From assembly GCA_903862425.1 (NCBI GenBank), contig CAIOYC010000030.1, positions 1 through 64,000 of the forward strand: a DNA stretch of 64,000 bases, read 5' to 3'. The translations under genes and the position numbers were made by a program. The DNA comes from an uncultured Caulobacterales bacterium. GTDB lineage: Bacteria > Pseudomonadota > Alphaproteobacteria > Caulobacterales > Caulobacteraceae. This document shows positions 9,326 through 34,858 of the stretch, one piece after another. Each line of letters opens with the position of its first letter. Within the stretch, counting starts at the first letter, position 1. The notes under the pieces were generated by a model that saw only the letters and a program-made list of their open reading frames with translations, did not search any database and had not been told where the DNA came from.

Positions 9326-10509
9326 CGGGCGCTCCTGGCGCTGGGTGTGGGCGCTGTCGGGCGACCGGTGCGGGGACGGGCGGTGCGGCGTTGCTGCTGG
9401 CCGAGCCGCGCGGGCTCGATCATTTCACGCGCGCGATCGGGTCCGGCGGCGAGCGTGGTGCGCCGGTCGCTCGACCGGCTGTCGCTGAACATCTGGGTGG
9501 TGTCGCGCCGGTCCATGGCGACGGCGGCAGCGGCGACGCGGGCGGCGCGCGGCTGGTCGATGACGAGAGAATCGCCGCCGCGCGCCGCCGGGGTGGCCCG
9601 GGCTGGGTCCGTATCGCGCCTGAGGCTCGGCAGCCTGAACCCAGTGGCGATCATCCCACCCGCGATCAGCGCGCCGGCGGCGACGCCGGTGAAGACGAGG
9701 ATCAGCGTCATCACGCTGTAGACCGGCCCAAGGGTGTAGATGTGCTGCTTTTGCAGTTCCTCCATCTGCAGAAGCGACGGCTCCAGCATGGTTAGGGCGA
9801 CGCCAAGCAGAAGAGTGGTGGCCAGCGGCGCGATGGCGAAGGCGAGGCTGGCGCGAAACCACCCCTCGAACACGCCGCGCGTGCTGTCGAACAGCAGGAG
9901 CGCGATGAAAATCGGTCCTACCGCGAGGAGCAGGCCCAGCACGATCTTGGCCGCCAGGAGGACGCCCAGGGTGGAGAGCAGCAGAAGCGAAGCGGAAGAA
10001 GTCAGCAGGAAGGCCGCGAATCCGGCCCCGCCTAGCAGCGGCGAAACTGTCGCCGGTGCATGGGAGGCGTAACCAGCGCCGAAACCGGACAGATCGTCGA
10101 AGGCGGTCTGCAGGCCATCGAACACATCGCCGTGGAAGATCGAACTATCGGGCTGGACCGCGGTCAGCATGTGACCCGCCAGTTGCTGCGGCCCCTGGAA
10201 CAGGAAGCCATAAACCAGGGTCTGGTAGGTATCCCATTGGGTCGCCAGCGCCAGCACCGCACCGAGCTTGACGGCGTTGAGCGCGAAATCGGAGACGCGC
10301 AGCTGGCTTCGCCCAATCAGCAACCGATAGCCGATGAAGGCCACATAGAGGGTCAGCAGCGCGGTCAGCAGGCCCGCGAAAACACTGCCTGGCTGGAAGA
10401 TGGCCATGTAGCCGGAATGGACAAGCTCGCGCACATTGCAATCGACCACGCCGAGCAGGCCGCGCACCAGCGGATCTTCCGGACCGGGAACGGGGCAGGT
10501 TCCAGCCAT
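9322..10509 (-). CDS. virB6: Type IV secretion polytopic membrane protein VirB6/TrbL
   Basis: Several hydrophobic helices fill the middle (LLTALLTLYVAFIGYRLLIG, the LLLLSTLGVLL region, a VGPIFIALLLF segment and others), as in the VirB6/TrbL family that forms part of the inner-membrane channel. The last roughly 90 residues are polar and Arg/Ala-rich, likely cytoplasmic. The frame is open to 10542, but the ATG at 10507-10509 overlaps the virB4 stop as TGATG, so that start is chosen. The operon passes straight from virB4 to virB6 without virB5, the pilus-tip gene. Confidence 0.88.
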   Translation of the reverse strand: MAGTCPVPGPEDPLVRGLLGVVDCNVRELVHSGYMAIFQPGSVFAGLLTALLTLYVAFIGYRLLIGRSQLRVSDFALNAVKLGAVLALATQWDTYQTLVYGFLFQGPQQLAGHMLTAVQPDSSIFHGDVFDGLQTAFDDLSGFGAGYASHAPATVSPLLGGAGFAAFLLTSSASLLLLSTLGVLLAAKIVLGLLLAVGPIFIALLLFDSTRGVFEGWFRASLAFAIAPLATTLLLGVALTMLEPSLLQMEELQKQHIYTLGPVYSVMTLILVFTGVAAGALIAGGMIATGFRLPSLRRDTDPARATPAARGGDSLVIDQPRAARVAAAAVAMDRRDTTQMFSDSRSSDRRTTLAAGPDRAREMIEPARLGQQQRRTARPRTGRPTAPTPSARSAR

Positions 10510-12902: not shown

Positions 12903-12903
12903 C

Positions 12904-13188
12904 TCAGGCGGAGTAGGAGTTGCAGCGCCAGAAGGCGAAGTTGCGCACCCGCGGGCAGCGGCTCACACGCGTCATCCACAGGTCGAAGAAGCGCGGCTCC
13001 TTCAAGCAGCCGAGATAGCCGATCACGTGGAGCACCACCGCCGCAATCAGGGCCCAAAACGACTTGGTGATCAGGAACAGCTCGATGGTCACCACCGCGT
13101 TCAGCACGAAGTAGCTGTAGGTCACGCCGGCGAACATCTGCGGGCGGGTCAGAGCGCCGAAGACTGGGTCGCGCTCAAGCTGGGCCAC
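12904..13188 (-). CDS. virB3: Type IV secretion protein VirB3
   Basis: 94 aa. Starts with a short polar segment (RDPVFGALTRPQMFAGV, the conserved VirB3 opening) followed by two hydrophobic helices, then a Cys/Arg-rich tail. VirB3 is an inner-membrane partner of VirB4. It sits 3 bases from virB2 and 1 base from virB4, the standard order. Confidence 0.88.
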   Translation of the reverse strand: MAQLERDPVFGALTRPQMFAGVTYSYFVLNAVVTIELFLITKSFWALIAAVVLHVIGYLGCLKEPRFFDLWMTRVSRCPRVRNFAFWRCNSYSA

Positions 13189-13191
13189 GGA

Positions 13192-13527
13192 TCAGCCGCC
13201 CGCCGCGACGGAGCGGATGCCGGCGACGATGGCCGCCGCGCCGAAGACGATGAAGCAGCCGAGGATCACGGTGGCGCCGCGCTTCCAGTCGATTCGGCCG
13301 GTCAGCATCATCAGGCCGGTAGCACCGACGGCGATCACCGCCAGGGCGGTCGCGACATTGCCGAGCAGTGTGCCCTGCAGCCAGTTCACCGCCGATAGGA
13401 TCGGGCTGGACCCTGACGGATCGAGTTGAGTAGCCTGGGCGTGGGCGGCTGTCGCGACGAAGCTCGCGAGAAGCGCGCACAGAGCGGTGTTACGCCGAGC
13501 TTGTAGGGTTCGGGTCATCGAGGTCAC
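13192..13527 (-). CDS. virB2: Type IV secretion major pilin VirB2
   Basis: 111 aa. A basic N-terminus and signal-like hydrophobic segment ending AAHAQ is followed by two further hydrophobic helices around a short polar loop with DWKRG. This is the TrbC/VirB2 pilin pattern. After cleavage the mature pilin would be about 80 aa. It overlaps virB1 by 4 bases. Confidence 0.9.
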
Positions 13528-14213
13528 TTCTTTGGCTCGCTCTCTGCGCGCTGGCTCAGTCGATCCAGGATCGCCGCAACGTAGGCGCGTGTTTCCTTAT
13601 AAGGCGGAACGCCGCCGTAGCGATCCACCGCGCCAGGCCCGGCATTGTAGGCGGCAAGGGCACGAACGGTATCGCCATCATAGCGCTTCAACAGGCCGCT
13701 AAGATATGCCGCGCCGCCGGCGAAGTTCTGGCGGCTGTCATGAGGATCGACCCCGAGCGCACGGGCCGTGCCGGGCATGAGCTGCATCTCTCCAATGGCT
13801 CCCGCAGACGAAACGACGCCTGGCTGCAGGCGCGACTCCCGCCAGGCGACGGCCTCCACGAGGTCAGGACTGAGGTCCGCATTTGATGCAGCGTCCGATA
13901 CGGCGCCGACTGTGTTAGATGATTTTGCTGGGTGGTGCGCGGTGCGCTGTGTCAGAAGGATCGGAACAGCACCTGTCGAGAGCGTGATCTCGGGCCGATC
14001 ATGAACCGTCACCGCGCCGCCGTCGCCTATCTCCAGAACCTGAGCCTCCGCTGAAATCGGCCCCGCCAGCACAAGGGTGCAGATCAGGCTGGCCGCGAGA
14101 TGCAGCGTCGTGTTCAAACGGTGCAGATCGCTGTCGTTCAATTGCAACCCTCGAAAGGCAAAACGCCAATCCCGTATCAATCTACGTGCCGCCAGCTGCA
14201 GCGGATGCTTCAA
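13524..14213 (-). CDS. virB1: Lytic transglycosylase VirB1
   Basis: 229 aa. The C-terminal half is an SLT (soluble lytic transglycosylase) domain: [14 protein letters not shown] with the catalytic Glu, [14 protein letters not shown], and [17 protein letters not shown]. It cuts peptidoglycan to let the T4SS pass. The first about 35 residues are polar and a signal-like segment ([15 protein letters not shown]) begins later, so the true start may be internal, near the [10 protein letters not shown] segment. It is the first gene of the virB operon; the promoter should lie upstream of 14213. Confidence 0.9.
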
Positions 14214-17009: not shown

Positions 17010-19139
17010 ATGGGATTGAGCCGTTTGATCGTGAGGCAAGCCCTCGCTTCAACGGTCCTTATCGCCGCGGCAGCCGGTCTCTCATTGGCCGCCAAAGCCC
17101 AGACGGATCGATCCCCCGCCGGTGATGCGTCCCCCACCATCCCGCAGACCGTCATCGTCACCGCCAAGCGGAACGAGGCGATGGGCACGGCCATATCCGC
17201 CAGTGCAGGTGAGGTCGGCGGTGTCGAGCTTTCACAACGGCCGATCCTGCGCCAGGGCGAGGTGCTAGAAGCCGTGCCCGGCATGATCGTTACCGCCCAT
17301 ACCAGCGGCGGCAAGGCCAACCAATATTATCTGCGCGGCTTCAACCTCGATCACGGCACCGACTTCGCCAGTAGCGTCGATGGTGTGCCGGTGAACTTCG
17401 GCACCCACGCCCACGGCCAGGGTTATATGGACCTGAACTGGCTGATCCCCGAGTTGGTGTCCGGGATCGCCTTCCGCAAAGGCCCTTACTATGCCGATGC
17501 GGGCGACTTCTCCGCCGCAGGAAACGCCAGCATCTCCTATCTGTCAAAGCTACCCTCGGACTTCGTGACGGTGGAATTCGGGACCGACGACTATGAGCGG
17601 GCCCTGGTCGCCGGTTCGAGCCCGCTCGGGCCGGGCCAATTGCTCTATGCCGGGGAGTCCATGCACTATGACGGTCCCTCGACCGTCCCAGGCAACTATC
17701 GCCGGCCCACCGCCCTGCTCAAATACACCCTAGGCGACGAGCAGACCGGCGGTGGGGTCACATTGCAGGCCTATGACGCGCGGTGGATTCCGAGCGACCA
17801 GATCCCTGTCGCCGCCATCCCGCTCGTCGGTCGCTACGGCTCGCTCGATCCCACCTCCACCGGACACACCTCGCGGTACAGCATCGCCGGTGAATGGCAC
17901 TGGGGCAGCGGCAATATCAGCCACCAGGTCGAGGTTTACGCCATCAAGTACGGGCTGAACCTCTATTCCGACTTCAGCGAATTTGTCGATCAGGTCCACG
18001 GCGACCAGTTCCGGCAATACGACAACCGCAGCGTCATCGGCGGATCAGAGCGGACAACGATCACCGGAAACTATCTCGGCCTGAAGACCGAGGACACCTT
18101 CGGCGTTCAGACCCGCAACGATTTCGTCAATACGGAGCTCGACCACACGCGGGACCGCGTCCTGCTCGAGGTGGAGCGCGGCGACCAGTCCGTGATCAAT
18201 TCCGCAGCCCTCTACTGGAGCAATTCGATCCTCTGGGCGCCGTGGCTGCGCACGGAAGCGGGCCTGCGGCTGGAGGCCTATCACTTTCACCTGGACAGCA
18301 ACACGCCGGCCAATTCCGGCGAGACCAGCGTCCTGCGGCCCGATCCCAAGATCGGCATCACTCTGTCTCCGCGCTCGGATCTGGATTTCTACGCCCAGGC
18401 TGGGATCAGCTATCGCTCCAACGACACGCGCGGCATCTTCGACAATGTGGCGCCGTACCCGGGCGGCCCGGTGCCGCTGGAGCGCTCCAAGCCCCTCGTC
18501 CGCTCGGACGGCGCCGAGGTCGGGGCGCGCTTACGCATGATCCCAGGCCTCACCTCGACCATCGCCTTCTGGTACCTGGCCAGCAATTCCGAACTGTTCT
18601 TCGCTGGAGACACGGGCTCGGACAACGACAGCGACCGGGCGGGACACCGCTACGGTGTCGAGTTCAACAACATCTACAATCCGACGCGCTGGCTGACGCT
18701 AGACGCCGACTTCGCGCTGTCGCAGGCCTTTTTTACCGACCGCGATCCGGTGGTGGGCAACCAGATTCCGGAAGCGATCAAGACCTCTGCTTCAGTGGCG
18801 GCCATCCTGCACGACCTGTCGGCTCTACGCGGGTTCACCGGCAGCCTCAGGATGCGCTATTTCGGGCCTCGCGACCTGATTGAGGACGGCAGCCAGCATT
18901 CCGCGTCGGTCACCGTTTTCAACGCCCGCGTGACCTATGACCTGACGCCCCGCATCGTGCTGGGCCTGGAAGCGCTGAACGTGTTCAACACCAGATATAA
19001 CGACGCGGAATACTACGACAGCTACCGGCTCAAGGGCCAGCCCGCCAATCCCGACAGCGACGATGGCAGCTATGACGGCCACGTCATCCACGCCGGGGAG
19101 CCGCTGGAGGTCCGGTTCAGCGCGACGGTGAAATACTAA
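17010..19139 (+). CDS. TonB-dependent receptor, probable nickel uptake
   Basis: 709 aa outer-membrane receptor. A signal peptide (about 1-30, ending LAAKAQ) is followed by a TonB box-like VIVTAKR, a plug domain (about 50-165) with YYLRGFNLDHGTDF and a THAHGQGYMDLNWL loop rich in His, then a 22-strand-type barrel ending in a terminal aromatic (VKY). The His-containing plug segment is found in receptors linked to nickel or cobalt. The NikR operator just upstream and hupE nearby support nickel complex uptake; the substrate is inferred. Confidence 0.88.
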   Translation: MGLSRLIVRQALASTVLIAAAAGLSLAAKAQTDRSPAGDASPTIPQTVIVTAKRNEAMGTAISASAGEVGGVELSQRPILRQGEVLEAVPGMIVTAHTSGGKANQYYLRGFNLDHGTDFASSVDGVPVNFGTHAHGQGYMDLNWLIPELVSGIAFRKGPYYADAGDFSAAGNASISYLSKLPSDFVTVEFGTDDYERALVAGSSPLGPGQLLYAGESMHYDGPSTVPGNYRRPTALLKYTLGDEQTGGGVTLQAYDARWIPSDQIPVAAIPLVGRYGSLDPTSTGHTSRYSIAGEWHWGSGNISHQVEVYAIKYGLNLYSDFSEFVDQVHGDQFRQYDNRSVIGGSERTTITGNYLGLKTEDTFGVQTRNDFVNTELDHTRDRVLLEVERGDQSVINSAALYWSNSILWAPWLRTEAGLRLEAYHFHLDSNTPANSGETSVLRPDPKIGITLSPRSDLDFYAQAGISYRSNDTRGIFDNVAPYPGGPVPLERSKPLVRSDGAEVGARLRMIPGLTSTIAFWYLASNSELFFAGDTGSDNDSDRAGHRYGVEFNNIYNPTRWLTLDADFALSQAFFTDRDPVVGNQIPEAIKTSASVAAILHDLSALRGFTGSLRMRYFGPRDLIEDGSQHSASVTVFNARVTYDLTPRIVLGLEALNVFNTRYNDAEYYDSYRLKGQPANPDSDDGSYDGHVIHAGEPLEVRFSATVKY

Positions 19140-23306: not shown

Positions 23307-24125
23307 GGTGCTGTCAGTCGTACGCTAAAATGTCTCCACTAGGCGGCTGAAAAAGTCGTTGTGAGGCATGGATTTATGCGGTCGATCTCGTTCAAGCGCC
23401 ACCGTTTTCCGGCCGAGGTGATCCGGCATGCGGTGTGGCTCTATTTCCGCTTCACCCTCAGCCTGCGCGACGTCGAGGAGATGATGGCGCAGCGTGGAGT
23501 CGACGTCAGCTACGAGACCATTCGGTGCTGGACGATCAAATTTGGGCCGCAGTTTGCCCGGGCGCTTAAGAGGCGCCGGCCGGCGCCTTCTCCCCGCTGG
23601 CATCTGGATGAGATGGTCTGCAACGTGCGGGGAAAACGCATGTACCTCTGGCGCGCCGTCGATGACGAGGGTGAGGTGTTAGACCTTGTAATGCAACGCC
23701 ATAGGGACACCGAAGCGGCGCTGAAGCTGCTGAAACGCCTGCTCCGCAACCAGCCCATTGCGCCTACCGCCATCGTCACGGACCGACTGAAATCATACGG
23801 CTCGGCGCTCGCCGAACTTGGCCTCTCCGGCATCCACCACGACGGAAAAAAGCGCGAGAACAACCGTGCGGAAAACTCCCACCTGCCCATCCGAAGACGG
23901 GAGCGGCAGCAGCTTGGGTTCAAGTCCCAGGCCTCCGCTCAGAGGTTTCTCACCGGCCATGCCGCTGTCTACAACACCTTCTACACCGCTAGGCATCTGA
24001 CTACCCGACCAACACTGCGGACCTTCCGCGCCGCGGCCTTCGAGGCCTGGTCACAGGCGACATACGCCTAGATTTCGGGGCGGGAAGGGCGGCCTATGAT
24101 CTTGGCGAGTTAAGCTGACAGGCCC
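23307..24125 (+). mobile_element. IS6-family insertion sequence, second type, apparently complete
   Basis: The left end GGTGCTGTCAGTCGTACG at 23307 and the inverted right end finishing at 24125 bound a 0.82-kb element with one intact transposase on the plus strand. Its ends differ from those of the other copies after the first 12 bases. No 8-bp direct repeat flanks it. It inserted into, or recombined with, the remnant at 23086-23306. Confidence 0.82.
23376..24071 (+). CDS. IS6-family transposase
   Basis: 231 aa from ATG 23376. A helix-turn-helix N-terminus (LRDVEEMMAQRGVDVSYETI) is followed by the DDE catalytic core: WHLDE, VTDRLKSY and the NRAENSHLPIRRRERQQ block. Full length for IS6/IS26 transposases and no internal break, so it is probably active. 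Clearly different from the other IS6 proteins here (LxRRRPAPSPR linker, AWSQATYA end). Confidence 0.93.
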   Translation: MRSISFKRHRFPAEVIRHAVWLYFRFTLSLRDVEEMMAQRGVDVSYETIRCWTIKFGPQFARALKRRRPAPSPRWHLDEMVCNVRGKRMYLWRAVDDEGEVLDLVMQRHRDTEAALKLLKRLLRNQPIAPTAIVTDRLKSYGSALAELGLSGIHHDGKKRENNRAENSHLPIRRRERQQLGFKSQASAQRFLTGHAAVYNTFYTARHLTTRPTLRTFRAAAFEAWSQATYA

Positions 24126-25478: not shown

Positions 25479-26303
25479 GGTGCTGTCAGTCCAACGGCAA
25501 CTTGTCTCCACTCGTCGGAGCACTGGCAGGGGAGGGCGGAGCTAGGCCATGAGGGATTTCCACTCAGCCAAGGCGGCTGAGCGTCGGGCCTTGTAGTCGC
25601 TTCGGCTGATGAGGTGGCGATCCTGATTGAAGTGGTTGTGAATCGAGGCGTGGACGGACGTGAATTTCTGCAGCGTCTTCATCCTCCGAAACCGCAGCAT
25701 GGCGCGCTCCCTTCGTCGGAAGGGGAGGTGAGAGTTCTCACATCGATTATTTAGTCGGCGGCCCGTCTGCTGCAGATCGACGGCGCCGATCTCTTTCAAC
25801 GCAGCGCCGTATGAGCGGAGGCGGTCGGTCACGATGGCTTTGGTTCGGCCATGCCGTTTCATCGCTTTCTTGATGAATTTCAACGCGGCAGCCTTGTCGC
25901 GCGTCTCAGTGACGAACGACTCGAGGATCTCGCCTTCATGGTCCACGGCTCGCCAGAGGTACTTCTGCTCGCCGTTGATGCGGACGAAGACCTCGTCTAG
26001 GTGCCAGCGCCAATGGGTGAACTGGCGCATCCGATCAACCCGCTTGCGCCGGATGTCCGCGGCGAACATGGGACCGAACCGGTTCCACCAGAGCCGCACC
26101 GTTTCGTGGCAAATGTCGATGCCGCGCTCGAACAGCAGGTCTTCCACGTTGCGCAGCGACAGCGGGTAGCGAACGTACATCATCACGACGAGGCGGATCA
26201 CTTCCGGTGATGAGTCGAAGTAGCGAAATGGGTCGGTCGAGCGGGCCATTAAGCCACGCTATCCGCCCGCGCCGGCCTCAGGCAAGTTTGGGCTGACAGC
26301 ACC
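25479..26303 (-). mobile_element. IS6-family insertion sequence, third type, apparently complete
   Basis: Ends GGTGCTGTCAGTCCAACG (25479) and, inverted, GGTGCTGTCAGCCCAAAC (ending 26303) bound a 0.82-kb element with one intact minus-strand transposase. The flanks (cctcgcca and ttggggac) are not repeats of each other. It separates a toxin tail from an integrase tail, two unrelated truncated genes, so the element marks a deletion or rearrangement. Confidence 0.87.
25542..26249 (-). CDS. IS6-family transposase
   Basis: 235 aa. Shares most residues with the 238-aa protein at 33990-34706 but is clearly a different IS (start ARSTDPFRYFDSS). All catalytic blocks are present: WHLDE, VTDRLRSY, CENSHLPFRRRERAMLRF. 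Full length, probably active. Confidence 0.93.
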   Translation of the reverse strand: MARSTDPFRYFDSSPEVIRLVVMMYVRYPLSLRNVEDLLFERGIDICHETVRLWWNRFGPMFAADIRRKRVDRMRQFTHWRWHLDEVFVRINGEQKYLWRAVDHEGEILESFVTETRDKAAALKFIKKAMKRHGRTKAIVTDRLRSYGAALKEIGAVDLQQTGRRLNNRCENSHLPFRRRERAMLRFRRMKTLQKFTSVHASIHNHFNQDRHLISRSDYKARRSAALAEWKSLMA

Positions 26304-26684
26304 TTGGGGACGGCTGCGAACGAGGTGCTTTCCTCGTTGGAAAGCGGCGGATCAAAAGATCCAGTATTCATCTACCGTGGAGAGAAGCTGAAGGCTGTCG
26401 GCGTTACTTGGTTCTGGGCTAAGGTTCGCAAAGACGCGGGTCTAGGGGATGTTCGCCTGCATGACTTGCGACACAACTTCGCCAGTCATGCAGTTATGAA
26501 CGGCGAACCACTGGCGGCTGTTTCAAAAATGCTTGGACATGGATCGGTTGCGGCGACCGCCCGATATGCTCATCTCGACGACGCGCGGCTTGTTTCGGCG
26601 GCCGAAGCCATTGGGGGAGTGATGGCCCGGCAACTTCGACTTCCGAACCACGCCGCACACCTGACAAAGGATCGGTGCACATAA
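26304..26684 (+). pseudogene. Tyrosine recombinase (integrase), C-terminal half
   Basis: The frame begins at the IS end and encodes about 126 residues with the second half of the tyrosine recombinase active site: His53-x-x-Arg56 (HDLRH), LGHG with His79, and Tyr88 in ARYAH. The first catalytic Arg and the N-terminal DNA-binding domains are missing. Not functional as it stands; it records an integrase that once served a nearby element. Confidence 0.8.
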
Positions 26685-27039
26685 TGCTCTAACTTAGGCA
26701 CAGCTTCAAATCGGTTCGTCGACGGTCGATACGCCGTCTGATGGCGAGGAAAGGTGAAATTAGGGACGAACTCTAGAGAGAGCAGACTACTACCATTCGA
26801 ATGAAGGCAAGTGCGATTTGTCTCTTAGCGGAAGTTGTCATCAATGCCCCGAAGGTGACGTCACCTCCGCTAACCGAACTGATAACTTGCGCCAAGAGCA
26901 GCACCTAACGCTCGTCCAGAAACCAAGCGGTGCTGGCAACCTTGGCAAGTTCGTAGCGATGGCGCAGCTATAGCGTGCCCGCTGTTCGAAAGAATATCTA
27001 GGGAACCCGCCCACACTTATTCAAGCACCCATCAACGTC
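26685..27039. other. Intergenic stretch without recognisable genes
   Basis: About 355 bases between the integrase tail and the terminator at 27040. No reading frame with start and RBS, no repeats of the IS ends and no RNA fold stand out. The composition shifts here toward the AT-richer peptide locus. Confidence 0.5.
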
Positions 27040-27073
27040 AAAAAAGGCGCCGAACGCTGAGCCCCCGGCGCCT
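27040..27073 (-). terminator. Rho-independent terminator of the minus-strand precursor operon
   Basis: Read on the minus strand, aggcgccg and cggcgcct form a perfect 8-bp stem with a loop of about 13 bases, followed directly by a run of six T. It lies 23 bases after the stop of the secreted cysteine-rich gene. Confidence 0.82.
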
Positions 27074-27095
27074 CAATAACGCTGTTCCCCGCTCG

Positions 27096-27455
27096 CTAGC
27101 CTGGGGTTGGTACGAAATTAGGGTCGGCTGCGCAGGTTTCCATTGCCTCCTGATCGCAGTTGTTCTCGCAGAAAGTCGTATTGTCCTGGGGATGCTGTGG
27201 ATTGTCGCATCTCGGGTGACAGACAACAGTCTGGTACCTAGCAACACAAACGCCAAAATTTCCAGACTGCGCAATCTGAATTCTTGATTGCCGACCTGAA
27301 GGTACTTTGGAGAAATTCAGCGGAGAAGCGGTAGTTGCATTGTGCAATGTGCCAACGTCACTAGACGGCAGGCTCACGGTAAGAGCAAGTGATAGCAGCG
27401 ATGCAGCGATCAATATCTGTCCCCTTTTAATTAACATGCGCAAGACATAGAGCAA
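27096..27455 (-). CDS. Small secreted cysteine-rich protein in the peptide locus
   Basis: 119 aa from a TTG at 27455 (GGAG 4 bases upstream), or 113 aa from ATG 27437. A hydrophobic signal segment (ILIAASLLSLALTVSL) is followed by a Ser/Thr/Asn-rich spacer and a C-terminal region with six cysteines, including CHPRC and CENNC. It lies 36 bases behind the first precursor gene and ahead of a strong terminator, so both form one transcript. There is no Gly-Gly leader, so it should leave by the Sec route. Possible roles are a chaperone, binding partner or immunity factor for the modified peptide. Family not recognised. Confidence 0.6.
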   Translation of the reverse strand: MLYVLRMLIKRGQILIAASLLSLALTVSLPSSDVGTLHNATTASPLNFSKVPSGRQSRIQIAQSGNFGVCVARYQTVVCHPRCDNPQHPQDNTTFCENNCDQEAMETCAADPNFVPTPG

Positions 27456-27491
27456 AATGCTCCAATATGTGGATTTATAAAAAACCGCCGG

Positions 27492-27740
27492 CTACGGAAT
27501 GCCGCCGCTGTCCAAATCGCAATGGCCGTTGGAGCAGCCAGTATTGGACGTGTGAGTGCAGTCACCATTATTGTGACATAGATCTAGATTTAAACCGGTG
27601 CACACATCTTCGTTTGTTCCCGCACCGCCGCTTAAAATAAGCGTGTGCTGCTCAATCAGAGCGAGGGCCTGGTCGTCAATTATTACCGCTCCACCCGCAT
27701 CCAGCCTTAAGCCACCGTTTACGATCGATGGAAGTTCCAT
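27492..27740 (-). CDS. Cysteine-rich RiPP precursor peptide 1
   Basis: 82 aa. Start at ATG 27740 with GGAGG 7 bases upstream; the frame is open 60 bases further but without a better RBS. Leader residues 1-39 contain G-L-R-L-D-A-G-G-A-V-I-I-D-D-Q-A-L and end in Gly38-Gly39, a double-glycine cut site. The core (40-82) holds Cys47, 55, 61, 69 and 74, spaced C-x7-C-x5-C-x7-C-x4-C, with many Asn, Gly, Thr and Ser. The leader shares its pattern with precursor 2 at 29187 and both lie beside a radical SAM enzyme and a C39-type exporter. Crosslink type cannot be read from sequence. Confidence 0.75.
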   Translation of the reverse strand: MELPSIVNGGLRLDAGGAVIIDDQALALIEQHTLILSGGAGTNEDVCTGLNLDLCHNNGDCTHTSNTGCSNGHCDLDSGGIP

Positions 27741-27911
27741 TCCATGTCCTCCAGTTTGAACAAAAGACGCGCAAGAGTTGCAGCTATGGTTGCAGCTCAA
27801 AGTCAGTGTCGAATCTACTCAGAGGCGCCGCCCACTCCCCTGCACGACAACCGTAACGTTGATTAATACCCGTCGAACTTGTCAAGAGGCAGTTGCATTT
27901 CCATCTGGCCG

Positions 27912-27972
27912 CGAATTGTGGCTTGACAGGGGCGGGGCCGCCATGATCGCATCCACAGGTCGCCACAATTCG
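27912..27972. promoter_or_regulatory. Inverted repeat in the divergent promoter of the peptide locus
   Basis: CGAATTGTGGC at 27912-27922 is repeated exactly inverted (GCCACAATTCG) at 27962-27972, with 39 bases between. It sits midway between precursor 1 (minus strand, start 27740) and the radical SAM gene (plus strand, start 28021). A TTGACA hexamer overlaps the left side (27923-27928) but a good -10 is not evident. It may be a regulator site shared by both operons; no regulator gene is seen in the locus. Confidence 0.45.
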
Positions 27973-28020
27973 ACACGACCGCAGCGCGCATTTCATGAAT
28001 GCCTTTGGTGAGAAGCATAA

Positions 28021-29154
28021 ATGCCTGATGGATCTATGTTCGAGGATCTCGGTAACGGGGTAACAAAACGTCAGTTGGCGACGGCTTTATCGCCTCGTAT
28101 TCAAGAACTGATTATTCTCCCCACCGAGAAGTGCAATCTTCGCTGCACCTATTGCTACGAAGATTTCGCCATAGGTCGTATGAAGGAATCGACTCAACTA
28201 GGCTTGGAAAGGCTGATGGCCCGAAGAGTTCCTGACCTAACAAAACTTGCGATCAGCTGGTTCGGAGGGGAACCACTTACCGCTCAAGCTGTAGTCCTTC
28301 GACTCTCAAAATATGCCCACGAGCTGTGTCTCGAGCACGGAACAGATTTTTCCGGCGGCTTGACAACTAACGCTTATCTCTTGGACTTCGATCTGTTCGA
28401 AGAACTCGTCAGTTACAGGCAGAATTTCTACCAGATTACACTGGACGGCTGGGGATCAGTCCACGACGAGGTCAGGAATTTCGCAAACAGGAAGGGCACC
28501 TTTGATAGGATTTGGTCCAACCTTTTGGCCATGAAAAACAGCACGGCGCATTTCGAGATAATTCTTCGAATTCATGTGCGTCGGGAAAATATTGATAGCC
28601 TGCCTATTTTGATGGTCGAATTAGCCCGTGCGTTCGGCTCGGACAAGCGTTTCCGTTTGGATTTCGAACATCTAAGAGATCTCGGCGGTTCGGGAGGGCA
28701 GACAGTAAAAAATGGCGTCAAGATCGCTGAACTTTATGAGATCGAAGCCCACCTGCGCAAAGTCTTTAAAGAAGCTGCAGGTGGTGCAGTTGAGAGTGAT
28801 CTCGGCGAGGAAAAAAATCTCGCAAATCTTGTCGCAAAAGTAGCTGGAGAATCCGCTGGCGGTCGGAGAGCAGAGGAAATAGCGTTGAACGAGCCATACG
28901 TCTGCTATGCTGCTAAAGCGAATTCTCTACTCATTCGAGCGAATGGCCGGATTGGAAAGTGCACAGTCGCGTTTTCCGACGAAAGAAACGATATCGGGCA
29001 GGTCAATACCGATGGCACGATTTCCATTGATAATGAGAAGCTTCAGCCTTGGATCCGCGGGCTCGGCACGCTCGATCTTAATTCGCTGGCCTGTCCCCTT
29101 CAGAAAATGAGTTTCATGCCAAGTACGCACGTTGCCACCGAAGCCGTCGTTTAA
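28021..29154 (+). CDS. Radical SAM/short-SPASM peptide maturase
   Basis: 377 aa. The CxxxCxxC motif (Cys38, Cys42, Cys45 in EKCNLRCTYCYE) binds the [4Fe-4S]-SAM cluster, and SWFGGEPLT is the usual second motif. The C-terminal part has Cys295-x13-Gly-x4-Cys314, the first SPASM element, but only one further cysteine (Cys358) before the protein ends, so the auxiliary-cluster domain is short. Enzymes of this type crosslink or otherwise modify ribosomal peptides. Precursor genes lie on both sides (29187 and, divergent, 27740). The ATG at 28021 has a modest RBS (ggtgag). Confidence 0.88.
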   Translation: MPDGSMFEDLGNGVTKRQLATALSPRIQELIILPTEKCNLRCTYCYEDFAIGRMKESTQLGLERLMARRVPDLTKLAISWFGGEPLTAQAVVLRLSKYAHELCLEHGTDFSGGLTTNAYLLDFDLFEELVSYRQNFYQITLDGWGSVHDEVRNFANRKGTFDRIWSNLLAMKNSTAHFEIILRIHVRRENIDSLPILMVELARAFGSDKRFRLDFEHLRDLGGSGGQTVKNGVKIAELYEIEAHLRKVFKEAAGGAVESDLGEEKNLANLVAKVAGESAGGRRAEEIALNEPYVCYAAKANSLLIRANGRIGKCTVAFSDERNDIGQVNTDGTISIDNEKLQPWIRGLGTLDLNSLACPLQKMSFMPSTHVATEAVV

Positions 29155-29186
29155 CTCAACCAACCTTTCACGAAGCGGAGAAGGCT

Positions 29187-29438
29187 ATGTCCATTTTGTC
29201 CACCATTAACGTAACTGGTGTTCTGCTCGCTGACGACGGACGGGTCATCCTTCACGATGCCCAATTGGACAGTCTACAGGATGAGCTTGACGCATTCATC
29301 GCTGCCGGCGGAGATCCCCCGGATGGCGAAGCGGTCAACGCTGAGTGCAACAATCACATTAACTGCGATGGATCGTTCAACGGCGGATGCACAAACTGGG
29401 GCATCTGCAACACATCCCATGATATTGGATGTGACTAG
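29187..29438 (+). CDS. Cysteine-rich RiPP precursor peptide 2
   Basis: 83 aa from ATG 29187, preceded by GGAGAAGG at ideal distance. The leader (1-42) has V-L-L-A-D-D-G-R-V-I-L-H-D-A-Q-L and ends in Gly41-Gly42. The core (43-83) holds Cys54, 60, 68, 74 and 82, spaced C-x5-C-x7-C-x5-C-x7-C, a strict alternation. CNNHINC and CTNWGIC recall CHNNGDC and CSNGHC of precursor 1. It lies 32 bases after the radical SAM gene and 57 bases before the exporter, in one transcript. Confidence 0.8.
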   Translation: MSILSTINVTGVLLADDGRVILHDAQLDSLQDELDAFIAAGGDPPDGEAVNAECNNHINCDGSFNGGCTNWGICNTSHDIGCD

Positions 29439-29495
29439 GTCGCATCCTTTCAGATTGACGCCAAAACATCAAAAATTGCCACCTCGACCTGAAGT

Positions 29496-31613
29496 ATGAT
29501 TAGGGATTCACGCCCAGTTGTAGAGCTTCAGGTTAGGATCGCCGATTGCGGTTATGTGTGCATTTCGGCGATCCTGGCACTGTTCGGGACGAAAAGCGCG
29601 GTCGCTAGCCTAAAGACCATTGGTGGGAGTACCACCCGGGGGCTCACGCTTAAGCAGGTTCGAGACGTGTTGCGCGCAACGGGCGCCGACGCCGAGGCAA
29701 TTCAATTCGCACCAAAGGCTCTAGCAACATTTCCCGTGCCCGGGATTTTACTGCTGAATCATGGCCATTACATCGTCTTGGCTGGGCGTTATGGCGCAAA
29801 GTTTGAAGCCTTTTATCCTGAAAGGGGCTGGTTGCGCGTTCCCGTACATGAACTGATCCCGCAGACTGATGGGTTGGGAGTTGTGGTAACCAAATTCGTC
29901 CCAAACGCTGCCCTACCAGTAAAGACGACCAGATCAGCTTTCCGGATGTTCTACGGCCCTGCGCTCCGCATGCTTGTGGTGCAGCCGATAATTTATTGGA
30001 CAGTTGCGCTCGGCATATTCGCACAGTGCGGAACACTTACTCTACCGCTTCTTGCGATGAGATCGGCCGATTACTTTAAAACAGGTGACGGCCATGGAAT
30101 GATTGGATTTATCGGCGTAGGCTTTATCTTACTTTCCCTCACCAACGCGCTCACGACTGGTGCGCTGACTGTCGTCAATCAACTTGCAGCGCGCGCCTTG
30201 TCAAAGACGGCCGCTAAAACCATTTTTGATCGCCTCGCTGCTAAACGTCCTCAATGGTTCGATGAAGTTCCCGCAGATGGAATTCGCAATCAGATCACTT
30301 CCCTCGACGGACTAACCCGATTCACGAGCCAGCTTGTCCTGCTGCTCGGCGGAGCGATCGTTACCTTGGCCGCCGGTGTTTTTGTTCTTTGCCGGATTTC
30401 AATATGGCTCGCGGCTCCGGGATTTCTGCTCCTATTACTCTCGACACTGATCAATCTGGCGCTGCGCAATTCGGATGCACATGCAACCGCGCGCGCCGTC
30501 GATGCCGCACAGCGTCGCCAAGCCTTCACGCTTGATACGCTTTCACAAATTCCTGCCCTCAAAAGAAGCGGGAGTCTACGCCACGGCCGAAAAGAATACC
30601 TCAGGCTGGTCGAGCTAGCGGCGTCGACGGAAAGCGCTCTGACTATTCGACAATCAATTCGGGGATTGCTTTCCTCTGTGTCTAAATCGGCCGACAGCCT
30701 AATTTTTCTTTCCCTTGCAGCCTTCCTTATGGGCCGAGGAAACTACTCACTCGGTGGCTTTGTCGCCCTGGGCGCCTACAAGGATCTGTTATCCCAGACA
30801 CTTTCGACAATCATTCAGCAATTATGGCAGGTCCGCGGGCTTTCCGTCCATCTGCATCAAGCAGAAGAAATTATCGCGCAAGCCCCGGCAGTTTACAGGG
30901 TGCCCGATAAAATAGGGCGTGGCAGCCTGACGATGCGAAATGTATACTATCGCTACGGGTCATTCGGTGACGATGTACTAAAAAACGTCCAATTGAGCGT
31001 GCAGCCGGGCAACTTTACCGCCCTGTCAGGCCCCTCCGGAGCTGGGAAATCGACATTAGCTCGCTTGATATGTGGCCAAATTTTACCAGACGCTGGGGTT
31101 GTTGAGATTGACGGTCGCCCGGCATCCGCGGACCAGCGAGGCGTTGGGGCAGTCCTCCAGACTGATCGGCTAATTTCAGGTTCAATCCGCGAAAACGTGG
31201 CACTCTACAGGAAAAACATTTCCGACGAGTCGATCTACAGGGCACTCCGGATCGCCGAAATGGATGAATTCGTCCAATCCCTTCCGATGCGACTGCACTC
31301 AAAGGTAAGTGATGCTGGATCTGGATTGTCAGGAGGGCAGCGCCAGCGCCTGCTGCTTGCTAGGGCAATGCTCAACGCGCCTAGACTCGTCGTTCTGGAT
31401 GAAGGGACCTCAGCACTCGACGTTGAAACCGAAGCTAGGATAATCCGCAACATCCGAGCCACTGGAGCCTCACTTGTTATGGTGGCCCACCGGCCAGAGG
31501 TGTGGCAGGCAGCTACAAGCGTTTACGTTCTAGACAACGGGCTGCTCAGGGCTAGCCTGCCCGCGAATGAAAATGGTGGCGTATCTCTAGGCTTTCTGGC
31601 CTCGCAGAGTTGA
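29496..31613 (+). CDS. Peptidase-containing ABC transporter (C39-type) for the peptides
   Basis: 705 aa. N-terminal C39 peptidase-like domain (about 1-135): Gln12, catalytic Cys18 in ADCGYVC and His91 in HGHY, but the position of the usual catalytic Asp (D-P) is Tyr107-Pro108. A six-helix transmembrane domain (about 150-450) follows. The nucleotide-binding domain has Walker A GPSGAGKS (512-519), signature LSGGQRQR (about 610), Walker B LVVLDE and the His switch VAHRPE. Such proteins cut leaders after Gly-Gly and export the core across the inner membrane, which fits the two precursors. No HlyD-type membrane fusion gene is seen. The start has a weak RBS. Confidence 0.88.
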   Translation: MIRDSRPVVELQVRIADCGYVCISAILALFGTKSAVASLKTIGGSTTRGLTLKQVRDVLRATGADAEAIQFAPKALATFPVPGILLLNHGHYIVLAGRYGAKFEAFYPERGWLRVPVHELIPQTDGLGVVVTKFVPNAALPVKTTRSAFRMFYGPALRMLVVQPIIYWTVALGIFAQCGTLTLPLLAMRSADYFKTGDGHGMIGFIGVGFILLSLTNALTTGALTVVNQLAARALSKTAAKTIFDRLAAKRPQWFDEVPADGIRNQITSLDGLTRFTSQLVLLLGGAIVTLAAGVFVLCRISIWLAAPGFLLLLLSTLINLALRNSDAHATARAVDAAQRRQAFTLDTLSQIPALKRSGSLRHGRKEYLRLVELAASTESALTIRQSIRGLLSSVSKSADSLIFLSLAAFLMGRGNYSLGGFVALGAYKDLLSQTLSTIIQQLWQVRGLSVHLHQAEEIIAQAPAVYRVPDKIGRGSLTMRNVYYRYGSFGDDVLKNVQLSVQPGNFTALSGPSGAGKSTLARLICGQILPDAGVVEIDGRPASADQRGVGAVLQTDRLISGSIRENVALYRKNISDESIYRALRIAEMDEFVQSLPMRLHSKVSDAGSGLSGGQRQRLLLARAMLNAPRLVVLDEGTSALDVETEARIIRNIRATGASLVMVAHRPEVWQAATSVYVLDNGLLRASLPANENGGVSLGFLASQS

Positions 31614-31629
31614 GTGGGAGTTGCGAGGT

Positions 31630-33885
31630 ATGACAAAAAGCATCCCATCACGAGCCTCAGCTCTAATGCTGGGCGGCCTCTTGGCCTTTTCACTTGAGGC
31701 GCGGGCTCAACAACCTTCCGAAGCGTCGCCGGACAAAATTTCGCCGGGCGCTGGATCCAGCAAAGCCTCTGTGTCCAAAAAACAATCCGAAAACCAAAAG
31801 GCGGCTCAAAAGCCCAAAGCTGAAGTAAGTTCTAACGCTATCACAGTGGTGGCAAAAGCGCCCGGCTATAAAAGTTCCATCGATCGCCGCAGTTATAGCA
31901 TTACGAAAGATCTCACACGAGGTGAAGGGTCATTGGCAGACGTGCTTCGTAATATTCCGTCCGTGGACGTGGACCCGCAAGGCAGTTTGAGCCTCCGCGG
32001 CAGCACAAGCGTCACTGTTTTAGTCGACGGACAGCCATCACCCCTGTTTCAGGGGGCAATTCGGGCAGATACACTCCAACAGCTGCCTGCCGATCAGTTT
32101 GAACGTGTCGAAGTGATGACTAATCCTTCTGCCGCTTTCAGACCCGATGGCACTGGCGGCATCATCAATCTAATCTCGAAAAAAGTGTCATCGAGACAAG
32201 GCGCAAACGGAACAATCAAATTCAGTGTCGGCACCAATGGTCGCTACTCTGGGTCGCTCTCCGGCACCGATGTGATGGGAGATGTAAGCGTGAGCGGCAC
32301 CGTCACGCTGCGGCGTACAGCCACCCCGTTTGGAAATGATGTCTCGGGGATCATCAGCGACCCCGTAACGGGTCATACGGCTTCGGTCAAAAGTGACCGC
32401 ACGGGATCCCTCCGTTCAGATTCCGCCTCAAGCCAGATGTCCGCGAATTACAAATTTAACAAATACAATTCGGCAACTGCGTCACTCACATTCGCACAGC
32501 TTGATCTTCGCAATAAAAGTGACGGCAGCTACACCAGCGGCTCCGAAGATCCCTCGCTGATCCATCAATATTCAACCGAATATTTTTCAAGAAGCATTAC
32601 GCAGGGCGCTGTGGCGGCAATAAGTGCAGTTAGCCGCTCCGATAACCCGGATGATGAGCTTTCTGCGAGACTGAACATATCAGCACTAAAGCGGCGAACG
32701 GATTCCAGTGAGTCAGACATTTTCAGTGTCCCTGCAGCCACCGATCTCTTTCAAGCGCTAAACTTCAAGAACATGACCATCTCGGAGGCATTGAAGGTCG
32801 AATTGAAGCGCTCCGCTGTAAATGGGGCAAAGTTAGTAACCGGACTCGAGATCAATGCGGACCAAGATAGCTATGACCACTCAGGAAATATCGGGACGGC
32901 AGTTGACGACGCCTTACCTCTCAGCGGCTTAGCAAATCACTTTCGCGTATCACAGACCGTGGGTGCCGCATATCTAACGATTGATAGAAGTTTCGGTAAA
33001 TTCGAGATCATGCCCGGCATCCGGGTGGAAGAAACATTGGTCAAAACAAGTCGAACAAGCTCTGAGCAGGCAACACAGAACGACTATTTTGAGTTCTATC
33101 CGACTTTCCATGTTGGTTATGATTATTCAGATCACGAGAAAATAACGGGAAGCTACAGCCGGCGCGTACAGCGCCCTGATCCCGAGTCGCTCAATAATTA
33201 TCGCGTATACCAAGGCCCCCTATCCTACAGTCAGGGGAACATTTACCTCAAGCCATCAATAACGGATTCCGTTGAACTCGGGTATGAATGGCGGCACGAT
33301 AAAGACTATCGCCAGTTTAGTCTTTTCTATCGTGATAATAGAAATGCTTTTGCGGAAATAATGGAGAGTCTCGGCGGCGGGGCCGTGCTGAAAACCGCAT
33401 CAAATATCGGCCGATCCAAAAATACCGGCGTGGAAATAGTCGACAGCATGTCGATTTCGCCCGCTCTGACGCTGAATGGATCGGTGGACGCCATTTTCAA
33501 CGAATTGGAGGGCTTTGATGGTGCAGGCGCGCATAGGAGCGGTTACACCGTCAAGGCAAAGCTCAATTTAAATTGGAACCCGACAAAACTCGATTTCCTG
33601 CAATTGTCGGGAAACTGGTTTGGGCGCCAGGTGACCATCCAAGGTGCGCAGGCTCCGATGTCGATAATTAACGTTGGTTATCGCCATCAGTTCAACAACT
33701 CGATATCAACAGTAGTCACTCTGCAAGACCCATTTGGAACATTTCGCCCACGAAGCTACGTCAACAGCTCTGGCGTTCAAGAGGCGTCAAAAGGGCGCGC
33801 TGCAATACGTGCAGTAATTATTGGAATATCCTATTCATTTGGCGCTTCTGGCAAACGTTCGGAGGGCTTTGATTTTGGCAGCTAA
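31630..33885 (+). CDS. TonB-dependent receptor of the peptide locus
   Basis: 751 aa from ATG 31630 (GGGAG upstream; a TTG 9 bases earlier is possible). A signal peptide ends ARAQ, a Lys/Ser/Ala-rich linker follows (about 30-70), then a plug domain with AITVVAKAPGYKSS, LADVLRNIPSVDVD and LRGSTSVTVLVDGQPSP, then a large beta-barrel with VMTNPSAAFRPDGTGGIINL. This is the outer-membrane receptor type with plug and OMP_b-brl_3-like barrel. It follows the exporter by 16 bases, so it is part of the same operon. It may import the finished peptide or a peptide-metal complex, or give self-protection. Confidence 0.85.
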   Translation: MTKSIPSRASALMLGGLLAFSLEARAQQPSEASPDKISPGAGSSKASVSKKQSENQKAAQKPKAEVSSNAITVVAKAPGYKSSIDRRSYSITKDLTRGEGSLADVLRNIPSVDVDPQGSLSLRGSTSVTVLVDGQPSPLFQGAIRADTLQQLPADQFERVEVMTNPSAAFRPDGTGGIINLISKKVSSRQGANGTIKFSVGTNGRYSGSLSGTDVMGDVSVSGTVTLRRTATPFGNDVSGIISDPVTGHTASVKSDRTGSLRSDSASSQMSANYKFNKYNSATASLTFAQLDLRNKSDGSYTSGSEDPSLIHQYSTEYFSRSITQGAVAAISAVSRSDNPDDELSARLNISALKRRTDSSESDIFSVPAATDLFQALNFKNMTISEALKVELKRSAVNGAKLVTGLEINADQDSYDHSGNIGTAVDDALPLSGLANHFRVSQTVGAAYLTIDRSFGKFEIMPGIRVEETLVKTSRTSSEQATQNDYFEFYPTFHVGYDYSDHEKITGSYSRRVQRPDPESLNNYRVYQGPLSYSQGNIYLKPSITDSVELGYEWRHDKDYRQFSLFYRDNRNAFAEIMESLGGGAVLKTASNIGRSKNTGVEIVDSMSISPALTLNGSVDAIFNELEGFDGAGAHRSGYTVKAKLNLNWNPTKLDFLQLSGNWFGRQVTIQGAQAPMSIINVGYRHQFNNSISTVVTLQDPFGTFRPRSYVNSSGVQEASKGRAAIRAVIIGISYSFGASGKRSEGFDFGS

Positions 33886-33925
33886 AAAATTGGCTTAGCC
33901 GGCGGGCATCTTCATGGTGGGGTAC

Positions 33926-34759
33926 GGTGCTGTCAGTCTAACCGCAACTTGTCTCCACCTGGCGGACCGCGGGCAGGGGAGGCGGCAGCCTAGGCCATAA
34001 GGGACTTCCACTCAGCCAGGGCGGCTGAGCGTTGAGCCTTGAAGTCTTCTCGCTGGGTGAGGTGGCGGTCCTTGTTGAAGTGGTTGTGGAAAGCGGCATG
34101 GACGGAGCTGAATTTCTGTAAGCTCTTCATCTGCCTGAACCTCAACATGGCCCGTTCTCGTCGTCGGAAGGGCTGGTGTGAGTTCTCACAGCGATTGTTG
34201 GCCCAGCGGCCAATCTCCTGTTTATCAGCGTTGCCGATCTCCTTCATGGCTGCCCGATAGGAGCGCAAGCCGTCCGTGGTGATGGCTTTGGGGGAGCCGT
34301 GGCGCTTCAGCGCCTTCTTGATGAACTTCAGGGCCGCCGCCTTGTCCCTCTCCTTGGTGACAAAGGATTCCAGCACCTCGCCCTCGTGATCGACGGCGCG
34401 CCACAGGTAGTGCGTCTCGCCGTTGATCTTCACGTAGACCTCGTCGAGGTGCCATCGCCAGTGGGTGTATCCCTTCATGCGATCGACCCGCCGGCGGCGG
34501 ATCTCAGAGGCGAACATTGGGCCAAAGCGGTTCCACCAGAACCGCACCGTCTCGTGGCAGATCTCGATCCCGCGCTCGGCCAGCAAGTCCTCGACGTTCC
34601 GCAGCGAGAGCGGATACTTCACGTACATCATCACCACGAGCCGGATGATCTCGGGCGACGAGTTGAACCGATAGAACGGGGTCTTGGGCTTGCGGGCACG
34701 GGCCATGGTTGGGGCTTATGCCCTAGCTGTCGGCTCGGTGCACTTGGTCTGACAGAGCC
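33926..34759 (-). mobile_element. IS6-family insertion sequence, intact copy
   Basis: Same IS as copy 1 at 1672-2504: left end GGTGCTGTCAGTCTAACC at 33926 and right end GGCTCTGTCAGACC, read inverted, finishing at 34759. It carries an intact transposase. The flanks (tggggtac and agttgaac) show no target duplication. With the IS at 25479-26303 it brackets the peptide locus, but the two are different IS types. Confidence 0.9.
33990..34706 (-). CDS. IS6-family transposase (intact)
   Basis: 238 aa. Helix-turn-helix in LRNVEDLLAERGIEICHETV; catalytic blocks WHLDE, TTDGLRSY and CENSHQPFRRRERAMLRF with the DDE residues. Complete and probably active; it is the reference that shows the copy at 1736-2451 to be frameshifted. 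Confidence 0.95.
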   Translation of the reverse strand: MARARKPKTPFYRFNSSPEIIRLVVMMYVKYPLSLRNVEDLLAERGIEICHETVRFWWNRFGPMFASEIRRRRVDRMKGYTHWRWHLDEVYVKINGETHYLWRAVDHEGEVLESFVTKERDKAAALKFIKKALKRHGSPKAITTDGLRSYRAAMKEIGNADKQEIGRWANNRCENSHQPFRRRERAMLRFRQMKSLQKFSSVHAAFHNHFNKDRHLTQREDFKAQRSAALAEWKSLMA

Positions 34760-34858
34760 AGTTGAACCAATAGAACGGGGTCCAGGGTTTGCGGGCACGG
34801 GCCATAGGCCAAGCTTATGCCCTAGCTGCCGGCCGGGTGCACTTGGTCTGACAGAGCC
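34760..34858 (-). mobile_element. Second IS6 right-end fragment, tandem to the intact copy
   Basis: Ninety-nine bases repeat, with a few changes, the 5' end of the transposase gene and the right terminus already present at 34665-34759, finishing with another GGTCTGACAGAGCC. It is either the leftover of a second copy or a partial tandem duplication. Confidence 0.85.

Follow-up and report, generated by a model that had tools for sequence, protein, structure and literature searches.

The stretch analysed here, called the window throughout, comprises positions 1-64,000 of contig C30 (CAIOYC010000030.1) in the 3.69-Mb genome of an uncultured Caulobacterales bacterium (GCA_903862425.1). Between 27.1 and 33.9 kb, open reading frame (ORF) reading and Pfam searches identify six intact genes, five of which form a cassette for a ribosomally synthesised and post-translationally modified peptide (RiPP): two precursors, a radical S-adenosylmethionine (SAM) enzyme, a C39 ABC exporter and a TonB-dependent receptor. 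The features are:

28021..29154, plus strand: radical SAM maturase P0003, 377 residues; CX3CX2C motif at C38/C42/C45, auxiliary-cluster Cys C295, C314 and C358
27492..27740, minus strand: precursor peptide 1, 82 residues; Gly-Gly at residues 38-39; five core Cys
27495-27623, minus strand: predicted core of precursor 1; each of the five Cys with Asn at -3 or -4
29187..29438, plus strand: precursor peptide 2, 83 residues; Gly-Gly at residues 41-42; five core Cys
29313-29435, plus strand: predicted core of precursor 2; Asn at -3 or -4 for four of the five Cys
29496..31613, plus strand: C39 peptidase-ABC exporter, 705 residues; Pfam Peptidase_C39 and ABC domains
31630..33885, plus strand: TonB-dependent outer-membrane receptor P0005 of the PF14905 type, 751 residues; Plug and OMP_b-brl_3 domains
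27096..27437, minus strand: secreted-looking six-Cys protein, 113 residues, downstream of precursor 1

An initial annotation, made from the DNA and its translated reading frames, had named the six genes of this list and described their DNA as AT-richer. All six are present where it placed them, with intact frames and, for the enzyme, exporter and receptor, Pfam support, and the G+C content is 0.520 in 27040-33885 against 0.625 in the remaining window. The Pfam match in P0003 is to Radical_SAM, ribosome-binding-like sites precede both precursors, and a gap of 16 bases separates the exporter gene from the receptor gene.

The arrangement is not a chance one, because the full set of four gene types recurs in three further loci of this bacterial family and because precursor-like ORFs are concentrated close to the enzyme gene, less than 1 kb away. 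Enzyme matches at E 1e-20 or better occur in 5 of 390 family genomes, the window's own included. In the three family loci other than the window the enzyme is 57-60% identical, and each is adjoined by two precursors, a C39 exporter and a PF14905 receptor, a co-occurrence of the kind that the initial annotation had proposed as a check. A wider close group, 53-60% identical, consists of ten loci (the window, L020, L029, L030, L031-L034, L036 and L039). Precursor ORFs are present in nine of them (not L034), as is the C39 domain (again not L034; the L031 exporter frame is broken and that of L036 runs off the contig), and the PF14905 receptor in four, all from the window's bacterial family.

A scan of about 85,000 species genomes with the enzyme alignment returned at least 592 stretches and at least 511 relatives at E 1e-3 or better, not necessarily all of the enzyme's family, from which the best 80 were kept (weakest 7e-58); enzyme relatives occur in many bacterial phyla. 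Some loci are the same place under two labels (L018 is L030, L019 is L029), and L026 and L027 carry the same precursors; the 94-locus set, in which a few loci are duplicates, holds L018, L027 and L028 alongside these, and the three were left out of the core counts. The enzyme alignment A4 and its tree, rooted at the midpoint, hold 63 members: P0003, 52 of the 80 scan loci and ten chosen others. Omitted from both A4 and alignment A5 were L031, L036 and L082, which have in-frame stops in the enzyme, and L066, which has an over-long fused frame. The four family enzymes form one supported group (100/90) inside a 12-row multi-Cys group (98/95).

Precursors were sought over the 94 loci with an iterated profile built from 12 of them (E 0.05). 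It matched 78 small ORFs, comprising 70 of the 2252 within 1 kb of an enzyme gene and 8 of the 7990 farther off, five of these eight being further copies in L032 and L033; 56 of the 94 loci have such an ORF within 1 kb of the enzyme. Enzyme homologues thus do adjoin precursors of this kind, and the precursor frames are conserved, two points on which the initial annotation had staked its reading. The leader is short, with a consensus of about IxLdxxGxVxLxDxxL that often ends in Gly-Gly. By a crude text rule, which makes some false calls on both sides, a Gly-Gly leader is present in 20 of 23 loci with a C39 domain compared with 13 of 33 without one (Fisher p 3.5e-4). In the window a CX3CX2C enzyme stands beside short leader-core precursors, as in radical SAM-modified RiPPs, and the double-Gly leaders are accompanied by an exporter with a C39 domain, as for Gly-Gly/C39 exported peptides, which supports this part of the system as first annotated. 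Pfam and NCBIfam place the two window precursors in no family, and over 44 chosen precursors they gave only families matched weakly by one or two members.

Several relatives carry further genes or copies. In L032 (Massilia sp. CF038, 10169-13943) five different precursors surround one enzyme and exporter. The betaproteobacterial relatives L031, L033 and L036 encode, behind a precursor, a protein of about 340 residues with a signal-anchor-like start, for which no Pfam family was found in the two copies scanned (L031 and L033); at L033 8154-13029 the enzyme, precursor and this protein occur twice in tandem.

The enzyme itself is small. Its CX3CX2C motif is followed by Cx13Gx4C (C295, C314) and a final Cys-Pro (C358), a pattern conserved in the 63 aligned members. 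The three auxiliary-cluster Cys, assigned from sequence alone, are C295 and C314, invariant in A4 and A5, and C358, invariant in A4 and conserved to at least 90% in A5. In SPASM enzymes the CX2CX5CX3-4C part holds a second auxiliary cluster (AuxII). The corresponding full-SPASM motif, CX2CX5CX3C, is absent from P0003, so that the 'short SPASM end' first attributed to it is correct for Cx13Gx4C and the final Cys-Pro but not for the CX2CX5 part. The AuxII part is present in 4 of the best 80 scan relatives (L103, L104, L106 and L108, all actinomycetes) and in Deinococcus L015; L034, L036, L077 and L084 are cut or broken at this point and uninformative there. In the tree, the three full-SPASM members present there group together (100/100). 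These three are about 100 residues longer at the N-terminus, with the radical SAM domain starting at residue 108-134 compared with 33 in P0003, and the alignment to the NCBIfam model TIGR04463 (rSAM_vs_C_rich) begins at model position 1 in L103 and 10 in L104. Pfam finds no PqqD-like domain in these longer members. P0003 has no N-terminal extension of the size of a RiPP recognition element (RRE), and to judge by length the short enzymes would lack this element.

Among solved structures the best sequence match to P0003 is CteB (E 1.2e-28). With the AlphaFold model of P0003 (predicted local distance difference test, pLDDT, 90.7), VIA-align also places CteB first (Z 22.7 over 297 residues, 3.5 Å), tied with anSME (22.6) and ChlB (22.0) and ahead of SuiB (19.6) and SkfB (19.1). 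The members scored individually match known families below the cut-offs. P0003 and six further members each score highest with TIGR04463; this model gives P0003 128 bits against a cut-off of 525, and the alignment spans residues 30-222 only. It matches all 63 members scanned at 1e-10 or better, and among the 25 of 52 families listed it is the best match over these members, at E 1.6e-66, or about 225 bits by comparison with individually scored members, against the same cut-off. P0003 is likewise below the NCBIfam cut-offs for CefB (NF038107; 99.7 against 600), PapB (NF047865; 92.8 against 340), Clo7bot (110.2 against 600), the geopeptide maturase (89.7 against 400) and SCIFF/CteB (TIGR03974; 61.7 against 425 bits). 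Nor do the six further members reach the cut-off of any model listed for them, so that all seven individually scored enzymes fall short. A search against known families, as first proposed, thus finds NCBIfam relatives for P0003, all below cut-off, and none for the two window precursors.

The cores are marked by a regular spacing of Asn and Cys. With Cys fixed and the remaining core residues shuffled, every residue and offset relative to Cys was scored in 73 cores; the shuffles ignore kinship, so the enrichment scores are generous. Asn at -3 of Cys is the most enriched combination (128 of 270, 42.6 expected), followed by Asn at -4 (92 of 266, 39.8 expected). Asn is found at -3 in 56 of 115 cases in the 19 cores inside the close group (20.2 expected), in 72 of 155 in the 54 cores outside it (21.4 expected; 500 shuffles gave no more than 35), and in 46 of 107 in the 44 cores outside the multi-Cys clade and L090, which come from many phyla (12.4 expected, shuffles at most 23). 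As the first profile had seen the cores, a second was built from leader columns alone; it recovered 34 ORFs, 18 of them from the close group, with Asn at -3 in 76 of 152 cases (23.4 expected, shuffles at most 35) and NxxC in 29 of the 34 cores (shuffled mean 16.8, maximum 24). For the 14 multi-Cys loci (27 ORFs), which include L031, L036 and L038 by likeness and not by tree placement, Asn stands at -3 or -4 for 139 of 152 Cys, with a mean of 48.6 and a maximum of 62 in 500 shuffles. Eighteen precursors chosen from these loci and L090 have Asn at one of the two positions for 93 of 101 Cys (at most 40 in 1000 shuffles), and the only invariant columns of their alignment are, in precursor 2 numbering, N51, C54, N56, C60, N65, C68, N70 and C74. 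Precursor 2 itself contains four Asn-Cys pairs with spacings of 3, 4, 3 and 4; other rows differ by a residue or have inserts.

These features suggest that the cassette probably makes a ranthipeptide-like RiPP with a core in the form of a ladder of Asn-Cys cross-links. The short leader would guide a small radical SAM enzyme, with no leader-binding domain detected and with Cys for only one auxiliary cluster. Because the auxiliary cluster would have only three Cys ligands (C295, C314 and C358), it could bind a substrate Cys; the 5'-deoxyadenosyl radical would then attack the Asn three or four residues before this Cys, giving a thioether from sulphur to the Asn beta-carbon, and the reaction would recur along the core, four or five times in all. 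The C39 ABC protein would remove the leader after Gly-Gly and export the core, and in the window's bacterial family the adjoining TonB-dependent receptor may bind the product or take it up. We infer the bond type from NxxcA of Streptococcus orisratti, in which the sulphur of Cys23 is joined to the beta-carbon of Asn20, a beta-thioether at -3 spacing (PMC8326336, PMC13361665). The proposed chemistry also draws on CteB and SkfB, each described as having an auxiliary cluster that a substrate Cys can reach; in SkfB this cluster has three Cys ligands (PMC8326336).

Several observations weigh against this reading. Asn is lacking at both -3 and -4 for 13 of the 152 Cys in the multi-Cys loci, including the last Cys of precursor 2; outside the multi-Cys clade and L090 the share with Asn at either position is only 58 of 106 Cys; and 4 of the 16 leader-only cores from outside the close group (L042, L077, L080 and L105) have no NxxC. 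The Asn enrichment could have another cause, such as a regular turn or solenoid, and kinship inflates its scores. Core boundaries were set by a crude rule, and a few cores hold upstream or leader residues. The precursor profile finds no precursor ORF within 1 kb of the enzyme in 38 of the 94 loci, among them all five full-SPASM loci seen (L015, L103, L104, L106 and L108). For precursor 2 AlphaFold gives a poor model (pLDDT 55.4, residues 49-83 under 50), and a core fold taken from it was set aside as unusable at such low core confidence. NxxcB, finally, is described as a SPASM-domain enzyme (PMC9012708), whereas the cassette enzyme has Cys for one cluster only; it is by this description that the two are set apart.

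The part played by the exporter may be read from its family: because it carries a C39 peptidase domain, it would be expected to cut after Gly-Gly and export the product. Beside the enzyme, L032 and L034 carry a MacA-MacB-TolC-like set (Pfam-checked in L032) and L039 carries HlyD and MacB, neighbours that fit onward export from the periplasm; the window-family loci have the receptor instead. In L056, L060, L064, L068, L075 and L086 (Pseudoalteromonas, Shewanella and Ferrimonas) both a C39-type exporter and a MacB-type ABC ATPase (at least 200 bits) lie downstream of the enzyme.

What, then, is the receptor for? It adjoins the cassette in all four loci of the window's bacterial family. In the window it follows the exporter directly, L018 and L019 have it upstream in divergent orientation, and L020 has a receptor on either side. 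The four genomes contain ten PF14905 receptors of at least 100 bits, five of which lie within 5 kb of the enzyme against 0.03 expected; the binomial p is about 4e-11, for four loci that share ancestry and are not independent draws. It is a fair guess that the receptor binds the product or takes it up. There is nonetheless an appreciable chance, if short of even, that it is a bystander, since the RiPP may need no outer-membrane receptor, such bacteria have many of the TonB-dependent type, and the adjacency could be accidental or serve another purpose. Relatives of P0005 occur in 236 of 388 family genomes at E 1e-50, and the best, 40% identical, comes from a genome that lacks the cassette. Over long alignments, receptors from these four loci are no more than 25-33% alike, with one pair reaching 38% over just 169 residues, and the downstream receptor of L020 has relatives elsewhere (36-38% identical) closer than the receptors of L018 and L019. 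Five receptor queries found none in six other close relatives, of which the L036 and L039 contigs end less than 8 kb from the enzyme. It is the clustering of half of the PF14905 receptors of these genomes beside the cassette that argues against a bystander. A receptor family specific to the RiPP was sought and not found, P0005 and the downstream receptor of L020 being closer to outside relatives. A second TonB-dependent receptor, with a Plug domain and a barrel match below the cut-off, is encoded at 17010-19139 of the window, about 8 kb from the cassette.

The core chemistry, too, has alternatives. Asn might serve only as a recognition residue, with the Cys linked elsewhere, either to an alpha-carbon as in sactipeptides or by a thioether to a nearby Thr, Ser or Gly. 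Enrichment is also seen for Asn at +2 and +5, Thr at -5 and +3 and Gly at -6, CteB is described as joining Cys to Thr (PMC8326336), and the model of P0003 is as near to anSME and ChlB as to CteB. We consider this unlikely: Asn at -3 exceeds every other residue and offset in enrichment, the alignment of 18 precursors has no invariant columns other than those of Asn and Cys, and the sactisynthase model RumMC scores lower for P0003 (51.1 bits) than those for PapB (92.8), QhpD (62.4) and SCIFF (61.7). Less likely again is that the enzyme alters Asn, by epimerisation or another C-H oxidation, and leaves the Cys as thiols or periplasmic disulfides, in a peptide that might bind a metal and be recaptured as a complex by the receptor. 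The odd number of core Cys, five in each window precursor, and the adjacent receptor in the four family loci would suit such a peptide; against it, the thioether synthases CteB and SkfB are described as having an auxiliary cluster that is accessible to a substrate Cys (PMC8326336), and metal binding does not explain the near one-to-one pairing of Asn with Cys. That the frames were kept by chance on a decayed, insertion sequence (IS)-flanked remnant is barely credible, for although two related IS6 elements and an integrase fragment flank the cassette, all frames are intact, ribosome-binding-like sites precede both precursors, and the recurrence of the same gene set in three further loci refutes it.

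These flanking features nevertheless bear on the history of the cassette, which is probably mobile. The two elements are:

25479..26303, minus strand: left IS6-family element, transposase 25542-26249, with terminal inverted repeats
33926..34758, minus strand: right IS6-family element, transposase 33990-34706; outer end uncertain, the same end motif recurring at 34857

They have the same orientation and are related but clearly not identical, for which reason we do not claim them as one composite transposon; no matching flanking repeats were seen in the short flanks inspected. Ends of the IS6 type occur in several copies in the window (1672, 23086, 23307, 25479 and 33926), with a further transposase of the same DDE type at 23361-24071, and a phage-type integrase fragment (26304-26684) lies directly beside the left element. 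Because of a VirB4/TrbE-like conjugation ATPase gene at 10509-12902, the sequence suggests a plasmid or integrative conjugative element. A megablast search of 26700-33990 against plasmids gave no match, in a collection that may omit records close to the window's own genome; tblastn with the enzyme found 91 plasmid records, all below 60% identity. The same enzyme family occurs on IMG/VR contigs classed as viral (L024-L028), with NxxC precursors in L025, L026 and L027, and phages or proviruses may carry such cassettes.

The six-Cys protein had been counted as part of the system, a view that does not hold. No tblastn match at 1e-8 was found in the 92 loci compared, and of 149 family genomes only two match, its own included, the other weakly and with stops. 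On this near-absence from related loci and family genomes we reject it as a cassette part; it is probably an orphan. A YaiA match to P0006 (E 0.043, below the cut-off) was dropped.

What is new here is an enzyme family with Cys for one auxiliary cluster, combined with close Asn-Cys pairing of its substrates over many phyla. Our open-licence literature search met no description of this enzyme-peptide family, and the family may well have been listed before as an unnamed cluster. More tentatively, the cassette could belong to a large unnamed 'Asn-Cys ladder' class, made by a minimal radical SAM enzyme with neither a fused leader-binding domain nor a second auxiliary cluster, and with members in Proteobacteria, Cyanobacteria, Actinomycetes, Bacilli, Bacteroidota, Myxococcota, Planctomycetes and an archaeal metagenome-assembled genome. 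In the multi-Cys clade nearly all Cys would each be bridged to an Asn of their own at i-3 or i-4, so that the peptide becomes a stapled rod, and Caulobacter relatives would recapture the product through the adjoining receptor. If this is true, the beta-thioether chemistry reported for a streptococcal NxxC peptide is a common bacterial radical SAM peptide modification, and an enzyme of about 330-400 residues with one auxiliary cluster suffices to install several beta-thioethers. Such an enzyme would be a test case for the purpose of the second auxiliary cluster and the fused leader-binding domain, and possibly a peptide-stapling tool. It would also provide a checkable prediction for many unannotated small genes, namely the loss of one H2 per Asn-Cys pair.

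How does the cassette compare with known systems? The parts list, for which the initial annotation knew no described family, is not unprecedented, because the Itf cluster of Bacteroides thetaiotaomicron also combines a radical SAM enzyme, a C39 ABC protein and a TonB-dependent transporter (PMC11002830). That cluster also has a YcaO-like protein and forms an Ile-Trp C-C link on a precursor that carries an Ile-Thr-Phe motif; in contrast, Pfam finds no YcaO domain among the six locus proteins, and the precursors P0001/P0002 have no Ile-Thr-Phe motif. CteB, the ranthipeptide/SCIFF maturase (5WGG, 5WHY), is the closest solved structure to P0003 by sequence and tied closest by model, and CteB and PapB (freyrasin) share thioether chemistry, with the open auxiliary cluster described for CteB (PMC8326336). 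P0003 differs from both in having no N-terminal part of RRE size and no AuxII Cys, and in scoring below the PapB and SCIFF cut-offs. The TIGR04463 maturases provide its best model, yet one that aligns to part of the protein and far below cut-off. From its sequence the cassette is best called ranthipeptide-like, with a possible place among the ranthipeptides or in the NxxC subfamily of the streptococcal radical SAM RiPPs. Unlike NxxcA/NxxcB, it has a Gly-Gly leader and C39 export. As in that subfamily, Asn stands three residues before core Cys, with Asn at -4 for some Cys, and a radical SAM maturase is present; compared with the one bond described for NxxcA, the cassette precursors offer four to five candidate pairs at -3 and -4.

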